A stretch of 33,082 nucleotides of DNA, taken from the NCBI GenBank assembly GCA_015056415.1, contig SVGJ01000028.1, positions 1 through 33,082 on the forward strand. The letters are read 5' to 3'. The DNA comes from Clostridiales bacterium (GTDB lineage: Bacteria > Bacillota > Clostridia > Christensenellales > Aristaeellaceae). Below the pieces are notes generated by a model, which ran no database searches, was not told where the DNA came from, and worked only from the letters and a program-made list of their open reading frames with translations. How positions within the stretch are numbered: position 1 is the first letter of the stretch; every line of letters starts with the position of its first letter. This document shows positions 2,967 to 10,325 of the stretch, in pieces. The position numbers and the translations under genes are program-made.

Positions 2967-4301
2967 TTACTGCTTCACTTCATCCACCACGGCCAGGGAG
3001 ACCTCCAGGTCCACATACTCGCCGTCGGGGACGTCGTCGGGGTCGATGGAATCCTGATCCATCAGGTCGGCCAGGCCGGCCACACGGTAGACCTTCACCT
3101 TCAGCACGTCGCCGGCGGACTTGCTGCGGATGATGGCATTCATCTCGTCAGAGGTGGTGACGATGGTGTCGTTCACATCCACGATGATGTCGCCTGCCTG
3201 CATACCGGCCTTCTCGGCGGGGGAGCCTGCTTCCACTTCGCTGACGTACACGCCCTTGGGCAGGACGCCGTTGAGCACCAGGGTGCTGCTCTGGTTGATG
3301 TTCGCCACGCTGACGCCCATGCGGGGCTTGCCGATGAGGCTGGTGTTGCTGCTCTGGGCAGCGGAGGCGGTCTTGCTGACGTTCTCGGTCAGGCCGTTTT
3401 CAAGCACATCCATGATGATGGGCTTGGCAGCGTTGATCGGGATGCACATGCCGATGCCTTCGACGGTGCTGCCGCTGTAGGCGGAGCCGGTGTACTTCAG
3501 GGTGGGGATACCCATCAGTTCGCCTGTGACAGAGAACATACCGCCGCCGGAATTGCCGGCGTTGATGGCCGCGTCGGTCTGGATCATGGTGTTGGTGATG
3601 GTCTCGCGGCGGCCATATTTATCATAGGTGGTGGAGGAAACGGCGCGGTCCAGGGCGGAAACGATGCCCACCGTCACCGTGCCGGTGAACTGTTCGCTCA
3701 GGGGATTGCCGATGCAGATGGCCCAGTCGCCCACCAGCAGGGAATCGCTGTCGCCCAGCTTCACGGGGGGCAGCTTCAGGTCAGGGGCATAGATCACGGC
3801 CACGTCCAGATTCTCGTCATAGGCCACGAGGGTGGAGGCGTAGGTGGTGGCTTCCTCCTTGCCGGGCTCCATCACGGAGATTTCCAGGCGGGTGGCGTCC
3901 TCCACCACGTGGAAGTTGGTCAGCACATAGCCTTCGCCCACCACCACGCCGGAGCCGGTGCCGGCCAGAACCTCCTGCACCTGCTCCTCAAGGCCGCGGT
4001 TGTTGCCATAGCCATTTCCGTAGCCGCCGCCAAAGCCGCCGAAGCCGCCAAAGCCGCCGAAATCGCCAAAGAAATCATCAAGGCTGTAGGAATTGCGGTT
4101 GGAATAGCGGACGGTCTGATAGTTGTTCACGCCCACCACGCTGCCGCGCACCTCGGCAATGGCGGCGGTAAAGGGGCTGGTGACCACGGTGGTCACGGTG
4201 TTTTCGGCCTGGGCCACGGGATCGCCGGCCAGGGTTACGGCGGAGCCGATCATCATGCAGACCAGCGCGAGGGCAACATATCCAAGCAAACGCTTTTTCA
4301 T
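2967..4301 (-). CDS. HtrA/DegP-like membrane-anchored serine protease with PDZ domain
   Basis: A 444-residue HtrA-family protease. Residues 5-26 (LLGYVALALVCMMIGSAVTLAG) are an N-terminal membrane anchor, so the protease domain is outside the cell. A Gly/Phe-rich linker of repeated FGG units follows (about 79-100). The chymotrypsin-like domain has the catalytic triad H131 (TNFHVVED), D166 (ENLDVAVI) and S251 (NAGNSGGGMF; most HtrA have GNSGGP). One PDZ domain lies at about 325-408. The ATG at 4301 is chosen over upstream codons because AAAGGAGGT sits ten bases before it and the signal anchor starts there. The family degrades or refolds damaged exported proteins. Its place below a WalRK-like system recalls YycK/HtrC of the Bacillus wal operon. 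It has its own promoter with direct repeats. Confidence 0.9.
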   Translation of the reverse strand: MKKRLLGYVALALVCMMIGSAVTLAGDPVAQAENTVTTVVTSPFTAAIAEVRGSVVGVNNYQTVRYSNRNSYSLDDFFGDFGGFGGFGGFGGGYGNGYGNNRGLEEQVQEVLAGTGSGVVVGEGYVLTNFHVVEDATRLEISVMEPGKEEATTYASTLVAYDENLDVAVIYAPDLKLPPVKLGDSDSLLVGDWAICIGNPLSEQFTGTVTVGIVSALDRAVSSTTYDKYGRRETITNTMIQTDAAINAGNSGGGMFSVTGELMGIPTLKYTGSAYSGSTVEGIGMCIPINAAKPIIMDVLENGLTENVSKTASAAQSSNTSLIGKPRMGVSVANINQSSTLVLNGVLPKGVYVSEVEAGSPAEKAGMQAGDIIVDVNDTIVTTSDEMNAIIRSKSAGDVLKVKVYRVAGLADLMDQDSIDPDDVPDGEYVDLEVSLAVVDEVKQ

Positions 4302-4334: not shown

Positions 4335-4399
4335 AGTATACGGCATGATTTTGTCCCTGTTATGAACGGTTTATGAACAGTTTTCGCAATTTCATGAAC
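4335..4399 (-). promoter_or_regulatory. htrA promoter with direct repeats for a response regulator
   Basis: On the minus strand a -10 TATACT (plus 4335-4340) has only a weak -35 at 17 bases (ATAACA, 4358-4363). Overlapping and upstream of it are two exact copies of GTTCATAA, at 4360-4367 and 4371-4378, spaced 11 bases start to start, and a third, GTTCATGA, at 4392-4399. An 11-base direct repeat over a poor -35 is the usual layout for activation by an OmpR-type regulator; the WalR box has the same period. Regulation by the nearby WalR-like protein is inferred. Confidence 0.55.
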
Positions 4400-5618
4400 A
4401 TTCCATGGGATAAAGCAGCCTGAGCGGCAGGCCGAGGAGGACTCCGGCGATCAGGCAGAAGGCCGCGGAGATGAGCTCCGGCTGAAAGATCAGCCACGTA
4501 AGGGCCGCCAGGGCTGCGGCGCAGGGCAGGGTGATACGCCAGCTGCGCGGGACTGTACCCACGCAGGCGGCCGAGGCGATCAGCGCAAGCATCAGGCCGG
4601 AGGATTCCGGCGCGGCGTATCGCATGAAGCAGCCGATAGCCACGGGCCACATAAGCGCCCAGACCAGCGCGGCGATGTGCCGCAGGCTCAGCTTTGGGGT
4701 GAACGGCGCGTTCACGATGGGCAGCAGCAGTAGCCCTGCCACGGGAACCAGCCAGGCCGGAACCTGCCACACCAGCCCCGCAAAGCCAAGGATCAGCTGG
4801 GCCGTCAGCAGCCGCACCAGCTGCCGGAGCTCAACGCGGGAGCGGGTGAAGCCCTCGGCGAGCCGGTCCATCCAGTCCGGGCTGTCGGCGGTGAAGCAGT
4901 TCATGCCTTCGGGCTGGGAAGAAATACGCAGCGCGGCGGGAGGAGCCTCGGTAAGACCGACGGACAGCCTCCAGCGGGGCGGTAGCAGCGCTTCCACCAC
5001 GGATGGATCCATGGCCGGGGCGGTGATCTGCAGCGATCCCAGATAGGTCATGGGGCCGGGGCAGCCGTTTTCCACCGGCGCCATGGCAAGGCCGTACAGC
5101 CCTTCGCCCCGGGGGATCCGCTCGGCGTCCTGAGGCGTTTTCACGCGTTCCTCCTGTTCCCATACATAGGCGCAGGCTGCAAGCAGCGCGACGGGCTCGC
5201 CCAGGAAGTATGCCCGCTGGCCGTTGCCGTCGCGGACGATGTAGCCCCGCAGGCCGTTTTGCTCCACGGCTTGCAGGATGGGACACCGGGCAAGGAATTT
5301 TTCAGGGGTGAAGCCCAGGGGCTTCACAGCGGCCAGGATGGCGGCCTGGTCGGCGCCTCCGGCCAGGGAGTGTGTGACCGTGGCAGCCGAGGCCCACAGC
5401 AGCGCGCCGGATTGCAGCCGGGGCTGCGCAGTGGCTTCAAAGGGCAGGTGCGCGGCGGTCATGCGGCGGGGCTCCACCAGCAGCGTACTGTCGATGGCGG
5501 CGTGGTCCAGGGAGAACAGGGGCAGGCGCAGCCGCCACGGATGCCCCCAGCGCCGTGAAAGCATCAGCAGCGCGATCAGGGGAGGGATCAGGCATAAGAT
5601 CATGTGCATGGCAGTCAC
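4392..5618 (-). CDS. Membrane protein resembling a truncated, degenerate P-type ATPase
   Basis: A 408-residue protein with no confident family name. A membrane segment at 6-20 is followed at D43 by DSTLLVEPRRMT. D, T(+2), M(+10) and T(+11) fall exactly where a P-type ATPase has DKTGTLTxxxMT, but KTGT is lost. The soluble middle runs like an N domain, then MTYLGSLQITAPAMDPSVVEAL resembles the LG-x3-I-x-D-P-P-R hinge. The TGD and GDGxND motifs are absent. LAEGFTRSRVELRQLVRLL resembles the stalk before TM5, and about five or six helices follow. It would thus be a pseudo-enzyme starting at TM4, unable to pump. GTG at 5618 overlaps the previous stop (GTGA); ATG at 5609 is an alternative start. The P-type link is my pattern match, not a search result. 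Confidence 0.5.
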   Translation of the reverse strand: MTAMHMILCLIPPLIALLMLSRRWGHPWRLRLPLFSLDHAAIDSTLLVEPRRMTAAHLPFEATAQPRLQSGALLWASAATVTHSLAGGADQAAILAAVKPLGFTPEKFLARCPILQAVEQNGLRGYIVRDGNGQRAYFLGEPVALLAACAYVWEQEERVKTPQDAERIPRGEGLYGLAMAPVENGCPGPMTYLGSLQITAPAMDPSVVEALLPPRWRLSVGLTEAPPAALRISSQPEGMNCFTADSPDWMDRLAEGFTRSRVELRQLVRLLTAQLILGFAGLVWQVPAWLVPVAGLLLLPIVNAPFTPKLSLRHIAALVWALMWPVAIGCFMRYAAPESSGLMLALIASAACVGTVPRSWRITLPCAAALAALTWLIFQPELISAAFCLIAGVLLGLPLRLLYPMECS

Positions 5619-7153
5619 CCCAGCGGCTTGTCGATCAGGCTGGGATTCACAAGGAACTCCCCGGCCCAGTACAGGGTACCGCCCAGCTCCTCCAGCATTT
5701 CACCGTTGAAGAAGAAGCGTACCCGGGTGGCGCCTATGGCCTCGCCCAGGGTATTCACCATGCCGTAGCAGGCGATCTGCTCCCAGGAGGTGGCCTGGGT
5801 GCGGATCATTTCGGCGCAGCGCGCGGAAAGATTCACCAGCAGCGTATCGCCTTCCAGAGAAATGCCAAGCACGTCGTCTGCCGTCAATTCTTCGGGCAGC
5901 ACGGGCTCATAGCCTGCGTCCAGCTCCTGCTGGGTGGGGCCGGCCATGAGCTCGGCCAGCAGCATTCGGGGGCTGTGGGCCTGCTGATAGGGCAGGGCGC
6001 GCAGCACCTCCTTCAGCCGGTTGCCCGAGGAGAAGCACAGCGTGACCTGATCCATCAGGTAGGGGGCGAATTGCTGGCGCAGCAGCAATCCGTTCTGGAA
6101 GATCAGGTTGCCATGGGCAGCGCTGTACAGGCTGGTGAGCGGCGTGCCGCCGATGTACATCCGCACCGAGGAGACCGAGGGGATGAAGCTGGTCAGCGTA
6201 TAGGTCAGGGCGCTGATGAAGCAGGGCATATCCACCTGCGCCTGGCGCAGGGTGTTCTCCAGCCCGGCATGGAAATAGACGCTCAGCATCCGGCCGCCGT
6301 CGTCCAGCTCAGTGGTCTGGGGCGGGGCGGACATCAGGGCGGAAAGGTCGGGCATGGCGCTGGCGCCGGAGAGATACTGCGCGCCGCCGGAAAGGGCAGC
6401 GACGAGCCCGGAGGCCAGCTGATCCGGCGATTGGCCGGCGAAGGTCAGGTTGCGGGTCTCGGCGGCGATGCCGGAGCCGTCCGCCAGGGGGAAATACAGC
6501 GTGGCCACGGCGGATACGGGGGTATCGGCGGGGTTCTCGCCCAGGGGCGCGCGGCGGGCAGTCATCTGCTCCCAGAGCACGGTGAGCTCCTCGCCGGGGT
6601 GGATCGTCTGGCTGCCCAGGGGCAGGCTGCCGGTGATGTCCATGCCGATGGCCTGGTCAGCCACGAGAAAATTGACATACTGCACATCCTCGATCTCACA
6701 CAGGGTGGCGGTGATGGCGGCGCAGACCCGGTACAGCTCCTCCTGCTCCAGCTGCAGGGCGGTGGCGGCCAGGTTGACCGTGCACACCCCGCAGGAGATC
6801 TCCACGCTCTGGGCGCCGAACAGGCTCAGACTCACGCCGTTGCCCAGCGCCTGGGTCTGCTGGGTGGCGCCCCTGGTCATCAGCGCCTGCACGATGGCTT
6901 TGGCGTTGTGCTGGCCGTGGTTCAGGGGCAGGGTGACGTAATCGGTCAGCAGCCGCTGGCCGTCCAGGCTGGGCAGGTACAGCGGCACGGAGGCGGAGTG
7001 GATCAGGCTTTCATCGCCGGTGGGGGCGGCGTATCCGGCCTGCGCGGGGGGTAGCGTGGGCGCGGCGGGCGTGCCGGTCTCGCTGCGATGGCAGCTGGTG
7101 AGGCTCAGCGCGCAGGCCAGGGCCAGCAGCAGGCAAAGGATCCGTTTGTTCAT
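5615..7153 (-). CDS. Lipoprotein with two GerMN-like domains (GerM/LpqB-like)
   Basis: A 512-residue lipoprotein. MNKRILCLLLALACALSLTSC ends in the lipobox LTSC with the lipidated Cys at 21. Two GerMN-like regions are visible: an N-terminal one (about 55-180) and a C-terminal one (about 375-505, with LLAELMAGPTQQ and later GISLEGDTLLVNLSARCAEM), joined by a middle segment that may be a third relative. Start: ATG at 7159 overlaps the upstream stop, but GGAGG (7161-7165) is only one base from it, while ATG at 7153 has a normal 7-base gap, so 7153 is preferred. GerMN proteins include GerM (sporulation and cell wall) and LpqB, which partners MtrAB in Actinobacteria. It lies on the outer membrane face next to a WalK-like kinase, suggesting signal modulation. 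Confidence 0.75.
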   Translation of the reverse strand: MNKRILCLLLALACALSLTSCHRSETGTPAAPTLPPAQAGYAAPTGDESLIHSASVPLYLPSLDGQRLLTDYVTLPLNHGQHNAKAIVQALMTRGATQQTQALGNGVSLSLFGAQSVEISCGVCTVNLAATALQLEQEELYRVCAAITATLCEIEDVQYVNFLVADQAIGMDITGSLPLGSQTIHPGEELTVLWEQMTARRAPLGENPADTPVSAVATLYFPLADGSGIAAETRNLTFAGQSPDQLASGLVAALSGGAQYLSGASAMPDLSALMSAPPQTTELDDGGRMLSVYFHAGLENTLRQAQVDMPCFISALTYTLTSFIPSVSSVRMYIGGTPLTSLYSAAHGNLIFQNGLLLRQQFAPYLMDQVTLCFSSGNRLKEVLRALPYQQAHSPRMLLAELMAGPTQQELDAGYEPVLPEELTADDVLGISLEGDTLLVNLSARCAEMIRTQATSWEQIACYGMVNTLGEAIGATRVRFFFNGEMLEELGGTLYWAGEFLVNPSLIDKPLG

Positions 7154-7155
7154 AT

Positions 7156-8130
7156 TCATTCCTCCAGCCAGCCGGTGAGCTGCGAAAGGGTCACGCGCCA
7201 CAGGCCGCTTTCGCGGCAAAGGCGCAGGATGCAGCCCGGATGCAGGGTTTCCCGGCCTTTATCCAGGGTGGCCGCGTCGAGGGTATAGGTGGCCTGGGTC
7301 CCGTCCAGCGTGACGCTGCCGCCGGTGACGATGCATTGGGAAAGCAGCGGCAGATTCTCCATAGCGGTCACGAAATCACTGTAGCTGACCCGCTCCACGC
7401 CGGTGGAGGGATCCCGCCGGGCGATGTACTGGTACAGGCGCTGCCAGTCGCGGCTGCGCCACAATTCGCACAGCAGCTCCATGGTGCGCCCGGGGGTCAG
7501 GAGCAGGCTGTCGTCGCGGGTCATGGGACCCACCAGCGCGGTGGATTGGGGATCGGCGAGGAAATAGCTCTCCTGCAGGCGCAGGCTGCCGCCGGTGGAA
7601 CTGGTTTGCTCCACGAGGATCTGCACCCGGTCGATGGCGCAGTTCTCGGTGATGGTGGCCACGATGCTCTGCATACACAGCCGGCGGCGCAGCTGCTGCT
7701 GGGCAGGGGTGCCGGCGCTGTCCTCCGGGTAGCCGGCGAGGATCTCCTTGCTCAGCGTGACGAACAGCGTGCGCCCCTGGGTGACGGTGGAGAGCACCTG
7801 CGTGCCCGCGGGGAAAAGCCCTGTCAGGTCGGTGGAGTGGGAGCCGGGGCCGGAGAGCAGCTCCGTGAGGAGCGAGAGCTCGTAGGGCCGGGAGGGGGAG
7901 TGGGTGATGATCCGCGTTTCCGGGGCGAGGAAGGGCTCGTTCAGGTAGCGGAAATACAGGGTAGCAGTCTCTCTGCTGTCGAGGCTGGCGGGAGCCTGAG
8001 CCTCAGGCAGGGCGGAGCGCACGCCGGGAACATTGGTGGCCGAGGCGCCGCCCTGGGGGAGCCTGGCGGTGGAACAGCCGGCGAGCGTCAGCGCGCACAG
8101 CGCCAGCAGGATCAGCAATCGCTTTTTCAC
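7156..8130 (-). CDS. GerMN-domain lipoprotein
   Basis: A 324-residue lipoprotein. MKKRLLILLALCALTLAGC has the lipobox LAGC with the lipidated Cys at 19. The GerMN domain is at about 52-175 (TLYFRYLNEPFLAPETR at the start, LLTELLSGPGS, and GRTLFVTLSKEIL in the middle). The last ~110 residues (from TMELLCELWRSRDWQRLY) look like a small alpha+beta NTF2-like domain. It starts at GTG 8130, overlapping the kinase stop by four bases (GTGA), with AAGGAGG ten bases before, and the next lipoprotein gene overlaps its end, so expression is tightly coupled with the two-component system. By analogy with LpqB beside MtrB it may tune the kinase, but this is inference. Confidence 0.78.
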   Translation of the reverse strand: MKKRLLILLALCALTLAGCSTARLPQGGASATNVPGVRSALPEAQAPASLDSRETATLYFRYLNEPFLAPETRIITHSPSRPYELSLLTELLSGPGSHSTDLTGLFPAGTQVLSTVTQGRTLFVTLSKEILAGYPEDSAGTPAQQQLRRRLCMQSIVATITENCAIDRVQILVEQTSSTGGSLRLQESYFLADPQSTALVGPMTRDDSLLLTPGRTMELLCELWRSRDWQRLYQYIARRDPSTGVERVSYSDFVTAMENLPLLSQCIVTGGSVTLDGTQATYTLDAATLDKGRETLHPGCILRLCRESGLWRVTLSQLTGWLEE

Positions 8131-9611
8131 GGGGCAGACACCTCCTTGCCGTCCATGGGAAGCCTGACGATAAAGGTGGAACCCTTGCCCGGGGCGCTGT
8201 CCACACTGATGGCGCCCTTGTGCAGCGTTACCAGCTGGCGCACGATGCTCAGGCCCAGGCCGGTGCCGCCGGTCTCGCGGGAGCGGGCTTTGTCCACCCG
8301 GTAGAAGCGCTCGAAGATGTGGCCCTGGTCCTCCTTGGGAATGCCCACGCCGTTGTCCTTCACGGCCAGGATGGCGGTGCGGCCCTCGGTGGTCAGGGAT
8401 ACGGTGACCTCGCCGCCATCGGGGGTATATTTCAGGCCGTTCTCGGTCAGGTTGTAGATGATCTGGCCCAGCTTGGTGCGGTCAGCCACCAGGTTGCAAC
8501 CGGGGGTGATGTGTCCGGTCAGGGCCTGACCGCGCTGCTCGGCGGCAGGGGTGAGCAGGCGCAGGGTCTCCTCCACCAGCTCGGAAAGGTTCACCATGGA
8601 GGGGTGCAGCTCCATGCGGCGGCTGTCCATCTGGGTGAGGGTCAGAAGGTCGGTGATGATACCGGTGAGGCGATCGATCTCGTGGTTCATATCCTGCATG
8701 AATTCTGCCCGGAGCTCAGCGGGCATATCCGGCTGATAGATCAGGCTTTCCAGCAGGATCTTCATGGTGGCCAGGGGTGTTTTCAATTCGTGGGAGGCGT
8801 TGGAAACAAACTGGTTGCGGCTGCGGTCCAGCCGCTCCAGCTGATCGGCCATGGTGTTGTAGCTTTCCGCCAGCTGGCGCAATTCGCCGGAGCCGCGCAC
8901 CTTCACACGGGCGGAAAGGTCGCCCTTGCCCATCTTCTGGATGGTGCGGTTCAGGGCGGCGATGGGATTGGTGATGACCCGGGCGAAGATCATGGCAACG
9001 GCCAGGGCGGCCAGGGCCACCACCACGAACACCCGCAGCAGCTGCTGCTGCACCTGGTTCAGACTGGTCATCATTTCCTGCACGGGCGCCACAAACAGCA
9101 ATACGCCCAGCCGTCCACGGGTGCCGATGATGCTGGCTGTGCAATAGGCCACGTATTCATCGGCGGCGTCAGCGGTGAGGGACTGCTGCGTCCCCTTGAG
9201 GTGGTGGATGCCGTAGGCGGTGCTTTCGCCGCCGGTGAGCACGGAAAGCACCTCCGGCAGCTGCAGGCGCACGCCGCACAGCCGGGAGAAGCTGTCGAAC
9301 TGCACCTTGCCGTCCTCATCGATGATCATCAGGCGGCCGCCCATCTCGCCGCCGGAGGAGACCAGCGCCTCCTGCAGGGCATCGGAGCGGGCAGACTGAA
9401 AAAGCGGCGCAAATGTCGTGGCCAGCTTTTCAACGGAAAGGCTGTCTTGACGGATGCGCTGCTCATAAAGATGCTCGCTGACCAGGTTGGTGAGAGAAGA
9501 GGCCATGATGGCGAAAGAACTGCCTATAATCAAAAGAAAGGCCAGCAGGATCTTCCACCTGATGCTGGCCCAAGGCAGGAGCTTAGTCCTTGTCCGTGAA
9601 ATAGTAACCAA
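8127..9611 (-). CDS. WalK/PhoR-like sensor histidine kinase
   Basis: A 494-residue membrane kinase. TM1 is at about 20-42, an extracellular sensor (dCache/PAS-like size) at 43-190, TM2 at about 192-212, HAMP at about 211-263, HisKA with the phosphoacceptor H274 (VSNASHELKTPLATM), and an ATPase domain with N box NLTENGLKYT (387-396), G1 DNGVGIP (419-425), F box FERFYRVD and G2 GGTGLGLSI (448-456). HAMP joins HisKA directly, with no PAS domain between, unlike Bacillus WalK. The only early in-frame start is TTG at 9611, which lies inside the end of the regulator gene (29-base overlap) and has a poor ribosome site, so the exact start is unsure. It pairs with the WalR-like regulator upstream and probably controls cell-wall genes. 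Confidence 0.88.
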   Translation of the reverse strand: MVTISRTRTKLLPWASIRWKILLAFLLIIGSSFAIMASSLTNLVSEHLYEQRIRQDSLSVEKLATTFAPLFQSARSDALQEALVSSGGEMGGRLMIIDEDGKVQFDSFSRLCGVRLQLPEVLSVLTGGESTAYGIHHLKGTQQSLTADAADEYVAYCTASIIGTRGRLGVLLFVAPVQEMMTSLNQVQQQLLRVFVVVALAALAVAMIFARVITNPIAALNRTIQKMGKGDLSARVKVRGSGELRQLAESYNTMADQLERLDRSRNQFVSNASHELKTPLATMKILLESLIYQPDMPAELRAEFMQDMNHEIDRLTGIITDLLTLTQMDSRRMELHPSMVNLSELVEETLRLLTPAAEQRGQALTGHITPGCNLVADRTKLGQIIYNLTENGLKYTPDGGEVTVSLTTEGRTAILAVKDNGVGIPKEDQGHIFERFYRVDKARSRETGGTGLGLSIVRQLVTLHKGAISVDSAPGKGSTFIVRLPMDGKEVSAP

Positions 9612-10275
9612 CTCCCCATTTGGTAAAGATAAATTCCGGCTGGGAGGTGTTGCGCTCGATCTTTTCGCGCAGGCGGCGGATGTGCACGTCCACGGTGCGG
9701 GCGTCGCCGGTATAATCGTATTTCCAGACGGTCTCCAGCATCTGCTCGCGGCTGAAGACCTTGCCGCGGTTGTTGATGAACAGCTGCAGCAGGTCGAACT
9801 CCTTGGCGGTGAGGCGTACCTCCTTGCCGGCCAGGGTCACGGTGCGCTTGATCAGGTTGACCTCCATATCGCGCACACGCAGGACCTTCTTTTCCTCCAC
9901 GGGCTGCATGCCGCCGGCCCGGCGCAGGATGGTCTTGATGCGGGCCTTGACCTCCAGGATGTTGAAGGGCTTGGTCATGTAATCGTCAGCGCCGTACTCC
10001 AGGCCCAGGATCTTGTCCATATCCTCGCCCTTGGCGGTGAGCATGATGATCGGCACATTGCTGTGCTCGCGGATGCGCTGACACACGCTGATGCCGTCCA
10101 GCTTGGGCAGCATCACATCCAGCAGGATCATATCATAGGGCGTCGCAAAGAACTTGGCCAGAGCCTCCTCGCCGTCCATGGCGCTGTCGGTCTCATAACC
10201 TTCCTGCTCCAAAGTGTATTTCAGCCCCTTGAGAATCAAAGGCTCGTCGTCAACCAGCAGAATGCGCTTGCCCAT
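9583..10275 (-). CDS. WalR-like OmpR-family response regulator
   Basis: A 230-residue regulator. The receiver domain has the acidic pair D9-D10, phosphoacceptor D53 (ILLDVMLP), T80 and K102 (TKPF). The winged-helix DNA-binding domain (about 132-227) ends in VWKYDYTGDARTVDVHIRRLREKIERN and KWGVGYYF. The stretch YDYxGDxRTVDVxxRRLREKIExN is close to that of WalR, which is why WalR is preferred over PhoP. ATG at 10275 is chosen because the family starts with this residue run; ATG at 10296 has a poorer ribosome site. By family it controls cell-wall hydrolases and membrane homeostasis, and it may act on the repeats before htrA. Confidence 0.88.
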   Translation of the reverse strand: MGKRILLVDDEPLILKGLKYTLEQEGYETDSAMDGEEALAKFFATPYDMILLDVMLPKLDGISVCQRIREHSNVPIIMLTAKGEDMDKILGLEYGADDYMTKPFNILEVKARIKTILRRAGGMQPVEEKKVLRVRDMEVNLIKRTVTLAGKEVRLTAKEFDLLQLFINNRGKVFSREQMLETVWKYDYTGDARTVDVHIRRLREKIERNTSQPEFIFTKWGVGYYFTDKD

Positions 10276-10325
10276 AAATCGTACATCCTTCCTCATTTGC
10301 AGCCCAAATAGATGGCGCTGATTAG

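Follow-up and report, generated by a model that had tools for sequence, protein, structure and literature searches.

The window analysed here is the complete 33,082-nt stretch of contig SVGJ01000028.1 from a Clostridiales bacterium (assembly GCA_015056415.1), a gut member of the Clostridia, and the gene under study lies on its minus strand. Genes on this strand follow one another in the order response regulator, histidine kinase, two GerMN lipoproteins (GerM1 and GerM2), the gene in question and then an HtrA-like protease. The product encoded behind GerM2, referred to here as the slot protein, belongs to the P-type ATPases by descent but not by function. It is a pseudoenzyme that lacks transmembrane segments 1-3 (TM1-3), the A-domain, the phosphorylation motif, TGD and GDGxND, and retains, behind a TM4-like helix, a headpiece resembling the N-domain.

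The gene and the descent of its product

The open reading frame (ORF) at 4392..5618 on the minus strand is present as the initial annotation had claimed, with the remnants and losses listed there, and encodes 408 aa when read from GTG 5618, the start given by the ORF finder. The true start may be ATG 5609 rather than this GTG, a choice favoured by the GGGGTGA plus ATG upstream arrangement common to the closest relatives. The upstream GTG is absent in frame from the relative L002 yet in frame in L003-L006. The parts of the protein are as follows.

4392..5609, minus strand: P2-ATPase-derived pseudoenzyme of 405 aa, read from ATG 5609 (profile, structure, relatives)
5550..5606, minus strand: N-terminal helix at the place of TM4 (AlphaFold2 helix at residues 2-20, low to middling confidence score, pLDDT)
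5478..5492, minus strand: DSTLL, probable remnant of the DKTGT phosphorylation site (sequence and alignment)
4422..4763, minus strand: hydrophobic C-terminal part where TM5-10 would lie (hydropathy; low model confidence)

Taken alone, the window protein matches no family in Pfam or NCBIfam, and its phmmer matches in the PDB, to the mineralocorticoid receptor only (E >= 0.08), were discarded as chance. Among 17 members from the genus, Pfam returned a single weak Cation_ATPase_C match (E 0.081), and the PMR1-type NCBIfam model TIGR01522 was matched by four at E <= 10, the best at 2.6e-6. A profile built from the alignment of these 17 orthologues (profile A1) matched 49 PDB sequences at E <= 10, 48 of them P2 ATPases, many being versions of one pump. 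These include SPCA1 (5.4e-5), Na,K-ATPase, LMCA1, H,K-ATPase and SERCA; the 49th was an unrelated transporter at E 8.2. Alignment of the profile by hhalign with ten intact ATPases, themselves chosen from this profile's matches, gave a probability of 98 and E 1.2e-13, and the six closest sequences by themselves gave E 1.4e-4 and a probability of only 52; a control against the GerM2 alignment gave E 0.52. Above-chance sequence homology to P-type ATPases is thus obtained through profiles, and none from the single window sequence.

The predicted fold leads to the same family. AlphaFold2 and structure comparison yield TM4, the P/N headpiece and the start of TM5 of a P2 ATPase, including the N-domain fold expected of a P-type descendant. 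A fold unrelated to these domains, named beforehand as the outcome that would overturn the proposal, was not what structure prediction returned. In the structural alignment with Na,K-ATPase (9kci_A), the N-terminal helix pairs from residue 331 onward, which we take to be TM4 by numbering, in agreement with the earlier proposal of a truncated ATPase beginning at this segment. Hydropathy of the window protein shows one stretch at the TM4 place and five in the C-terminal part; such stretches are thus present towards a putative TM5-10 bundle, but pLDDT is below 50 across most of residues 291-405. Because profile, structure and relatives agree, chance resemblance is excluded, and descent from a P2-type, Ca2+-ATPase-like pump is nearly certain.

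Compared with P2A Ca2+-ATPases (PMR1/SPCA, TIGR01522; SERCA, TIGR01116; LMCA1 of Listeria), the pseudoenzyme shares the N-domain fold, the TM4/P1/N/P2/TM5 order and the signatures around KGAPE..C and FLG. It differs in having no A-domain, TM1-3, KTGT, TGD or GDGxND, in lacking the N-domain F and K, and in its length of 405 aa against about 890 aa. Pseudoenzymes are well known among kinases and proteases; among the open-licence papers listed by the searches, none describes a family of them derived from P-type ATPases.

Eroded and retained motifs

Matching frames from related genomes, 72 in number, were sorted by DKTG into 30 with the motif (729-1010 aa) and 42 without. Removal of L111, which is part of a full pump truncated at a contig edge, left 41 short forms of 365-694 aa, and these together with the window protein make up the 42 pseudoenzymes considered here. 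Length separates the short and full sets exactly as the motif does. DKTGT is absent from the window protein and from all 41 fetched short forms, a set that was sorted by DKTG and that length sorts identically. GDGxND likewise occurs in none of the 41 (L111 left out) and not in the window protein, in which a search for KTG, TGD and GDG strings found none. A TGD string occurs in four of the 41 short forms, near the motif place only in L081 and there one residue off. The A-domain (PF00122) has no Pfam match in the window protein, whose structural alignment begins at TM4, and the lone TGES string, in L090, falls outside any A-domain.

What remains of the phosphorylation site is variable. The window protein has D43, T45, M53 and T54 at positions 0, +2, +10 and +11, and the hinge "LG-x3-I" reads YLGSLQI, as first described. 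As a family signature, this set of remnants holds in part: the acidic residue is not constant (D in 27 of the 42, E in 9, P in 3, S in 2, H in 1), and M and T at +10/+11 are retained in some near relatives only. The column counted directly follows the D of DKTGT, with a gap at that D in 39 of the 42 pseudoenzyme rows; a gap-free reading from VETLG, as in L076, brings the acidic-site D onto it. The nucleotide site has also been eroded. In active pumps ATP is contacted in the N-domain by F of FDS, K of KGA and R of RVL, where the window protein has Q, L and G, and among the 42 the F is kept in one, the K in three and the R in 12. The structural C is kept in 39, and the G of FLG in all 42.

The membrane part is uneven as well. 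Hydropathy scans of 13 pseudoenzymes found hydrophobic stretches in ten; in L076, L077 and L079, from genera g61 and g70, none passes, and these proteins end near the expected end of the P-domain while still exceeding the PF13246 cut-off. The best conserved part of the pseudoenzymes is the headpiece, presumably cytoplasmic.

Genomic slot, spread and origin

The slot protein is surrounded by the following genes and a putative promoter element.

9583..10296, minus strand: OmpR-family response regulator (RR) (Pfam/NCBIfam)
8127..9611, minus strand: sensor histidine kinase (HK) with HAMP, HisKA and HATPase_c (Pfam/NCBIfam)
7156..8130, minus strand: GerM1, GerMN-domain lipoprotein (PF10646, E 2.6e-13; lipobox-like LAGC)
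5615..7159, minus strand: GerM2, lipoprotein with three GerMN stretches, immediately upstream of the pseudoenzyme gene (PF10646, E 3.7e-30; lipobox-like LTSC)
4350..4378, minus strand: direct repeat GTTCAT-N5-GTTCAT (11-bp period), then a -35-like GGACAAA; putative RR box of htrA
2967..4301, minus strand: HtrA-like serine protease with PDZ, likely start ATG 4301

Profile matches occur in all 18 genomes of the genus, with a short form in 17; G015 has a full-length ATPase only. This genome (95% complete) shows no recognisable GerM1/GerM2 pair, the only GerMN stretches found in it belonging to what reads as a sporulation-type GerM gene, and it seems to be without the operon. In the family sample at least 119 of 300 genomes have a match when both short and full-length forms are counted; the search scored the best five candidates per genome and missed G174, whose short form is L135. 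The 41 fetched short forms comprise 16 from the genus and 25 from g49, g61, g68, g70 and g72, so that short forms hold the same genomic place across six genera. The five named relatives are Clostridia metagenome-assembled genomes, of which four come from the hindgut of deer and sheep. In an order-wide sample (248 genomes, best six candidates per genome) no clear short form was found outside the family; other matches there are nearly all long frames or shorter frames hitting the P-domain end only, and G414 has one 636-aa frame matching the N-domain part. Further family matches in frames below 750 aa mostly cover only positions ~231-297, and frames of G085 and G081 (538 and 541 aa) match beyond them.

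Directly after GerM2 stand 39 of the 41 fetched short forms, and HtrA is recognised downstream in 22. The expectation that orthologues occupy the same operon place with motifs lost is borne out by these 39 and by the absence of KTGT and GDGxND from every short form; it fails in genus g14, where intact ATPases occupy the place after GerM2 in three of six loci (L120, L121, L122) and none is found in L137, L138 and L139. GerM2 itself matches in 287 of 300 family genomes (E <= 1e-3), about 15 of these being weaker than 1e-40 and maybe other GerMN proteins. The operon is thus more widely spread than the slot protein: in L123 and L126, for example, HtrA comes after GerM2 and no gene is recognised in between. 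As a separate observation, the GerM2/HtrA-like slot of L136 (G115:C14, 3481-5196) holds a 572-aa frame unmatched by the family profile, which could be a member eroded even further or a different protein.

In a tree built from 192 alignment columns (LG+G4+F, 1000 ultrafast bootstraps; 42 pseudoenzyme and 30 intact rows), the pseudoenzymes separate from the intact ATPases with support 100. Together with L072, L120, L121 and L122 they are set apart from the other 26 intact ATPases, again with support 100; branching order among these four has support 37, with long branches. L120-L122 had been fetched because search coordinates hinted at an intact pump near GerM2. L121 reads RR-HK-GerM1-GerM2-ATPase, L120 likewise without a recognised GerM1, and in L122 GerM2 alone is visible before the contig end, with an unrecognised frame between it and the ATPase. 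The g14 pump lies on the strand of GerM2, 150-930 nt behind it. L072, the closest intact relative by score, adjoins a divergent htrA-type promoter at a contig edge; it was dropped as an operon member on account of this position and of a box pointing the opposite way.

On a plain reading, a pump at or near the operon would have turned into the pseudoenzyme; a pump may alternatively have been recruited there and then lost in other genera. The material forms a natural series, from same-clade intact ATPases downstream of the same operon, through membrane-free N+P headpieces, to strongly eroded membrane-bound forms. The question of what stays useful once a pump stops pumping therefore becomes directly testable.

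A possible accessory of the histidine kinase

The operon has a fair likeness to the WalRK system with WalH/WalI (YycH/YycI), in which a regulator and a kinase are joined by membrane-associated accessories, and here HtrA stands at the end. WalK and YycF are the best NCBIfam models for HK and RR, which suits the label "wal-like" in the initial annotation, but both proteins fall below the curated equivalog thresholds (RR, 253 bits against 340 for YycF; HK, 297 against 725 for WalK). MtrAB models match too, likewise under their cut-offs (MtrA, 236 against 300 bits; MtrB, 224 against 450), and the MtrAB-LpqB system of Actinobacteria shares RR, HK and a GerMN lipoprotein, GerM2 weakly matching LpqB (E 0.019). 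To our knowledge YycH and YycI are not ATPase-derived, and we know of no pump-derived gene in the MtrAB-LpqB system. Assignment of the slot protein to YycH or YycI was dropped after the profile and structure results. In L130 (g59) and L131 (g47) the operon is rearranged, with RR and HK on the opposite strand to the two GerMN genes.

Comparable inactive copies are retained by related genera at the corresponding position of this cell-envelope sensor operon, which suggests that a pump has been converted into something else, perhaps a signalling part. LpqB is reported to lower MtrB activity (PMC5845573) and YycH/YycI to act on WalRK (PMC7355866). By analogy with these proteins, the slot protein is taken to serve the histidine kinase of the operon as a non-catalytic accessory. 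Its headpiece would lie on the cytoplasmic side and bind the kinase or a ligand, the slot protein would tune kinase output jointly with the two extracytoplasmic GerMN lipoproteins, and the response regulator of the system would drive htrA. As a whole, a P2-pump-derived pseudoenzyme acting as a kinase accessory is the best explanation, with a probability of roughly 0.6. The accessory role itself, argued from gene order, has slightly less than an even chance. More tentative still is a single conversion, within one bacterial family, of a P-type ATPase into a non-catalytic two-component signalling subunit, in which transport and, in some genera, the membrane part would have been lost and the nucleotide-domain fold kept as a ligand- or kinase-binding module. 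The pseudoenzyme family draws attention to a third component, as yet unstudied, in a sensing operon of the GerMN type which most sampled family genomes apparently carry.

Several observations weigh against this explanation. Individual members frequently fail to match any P-type model (the window protein and L090 none, L083 none in Pfam), the TM5-10 part is modelled at low confidence, and erosion is uneven, as seen in the near-motif TGD of L081 and the arginine kept in 12 of 42. L075 belongs to an operon copy that lacks GerM2 and comes directly behind GerM1 there; L068 (G211:C54, 6400-7896) lies outside the operon, adjoining a recF-like gene. Most GerM2-bearing family genomes show no short form among their five scored candidates, at least one having been missed (L135 of G174), and the sensing system seems to work without the slot protein. 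The GerM2-ATPase gap in g14 leaves co-transcription there only assumed. Finally, dN/dS (nonsynonymous to synonymous substitution rates) is 0.26-0.57 in seven chosen pairs with dS of 0.35-1.02, and the upper value indicates loose constraint.

Among other roles, the protein might scaffold the GerMN lipoproteins or HtrA at the membrane or take part in their quality control, or it might be a channel-like or ion-binding remnant, in each case without acting on the kinase. The position after GerM2, the HtrA genes downstream and the hydrophobic stretches in ten of 13 scanned members fit this, but the three scanned g61/g70 members have no such stretch, the catalytic motifs are lost and conservation is best in the cytoplasmic headpiece; such a role is somewhat unlikely. 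Pseudoenzymes often regulate active paralogues, and a protein that regulates an intact P2 pump encoded elsewhere in the genome, or acts on it in a dominant-negative way, would be compatible with the P2-type C-terminal domain PF00689 found in 12 of the 18 genus genomes. This is improbable: the rival is weakened because the other six genomes, all drafts and all with the pseudoenzyme, show no PF00689, among them the window's own genome and G013 and G005 (each >=95% complete), and 39 of the 41 fetched copies are found together with the GerM2 operon. Decay into a pseudogene would account for the shortening, motif loss, fast evolution and variable C-terminus, as well as for L081 (G104), whose match continues 24 nt past the TGA at the frame end. 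The gene does not look like a decaying one, though constraint is moderate: frames of 365-694 aa persist in 41 copies (that of L087 cut by the contig end), no stop codon interrupts the matched stretch in any of the genus copies listed, dN/dS is below 0.6 in all seven pairs and the place is the same in six genera, so that decay is very improbable. A split pump, restored by an A-domain gene elsewhere, has a negligible chance, since the phosphorylation lysine and threonines are gone and no partner would be expected to restore catalysis; the A-domain is indeed absent, but the three PF00122 places in the genome lie in frames of 699-838 aa, long enough for whole pumps.

Even when up to three mismatches are allowed, the putative RR box before htrA is the only one of its pattern in the source genome, which is 84% complete; this genome-wide regulon search found no second copy, and a reversed control pattern gave 0. 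By a strict text scan, similar boxes are present in 16 of 62 loci (11 of 16 in the genus), further genera of the family among them. By coordinates, these boxes lie just upstream of an HtrA frame in every case except L072.
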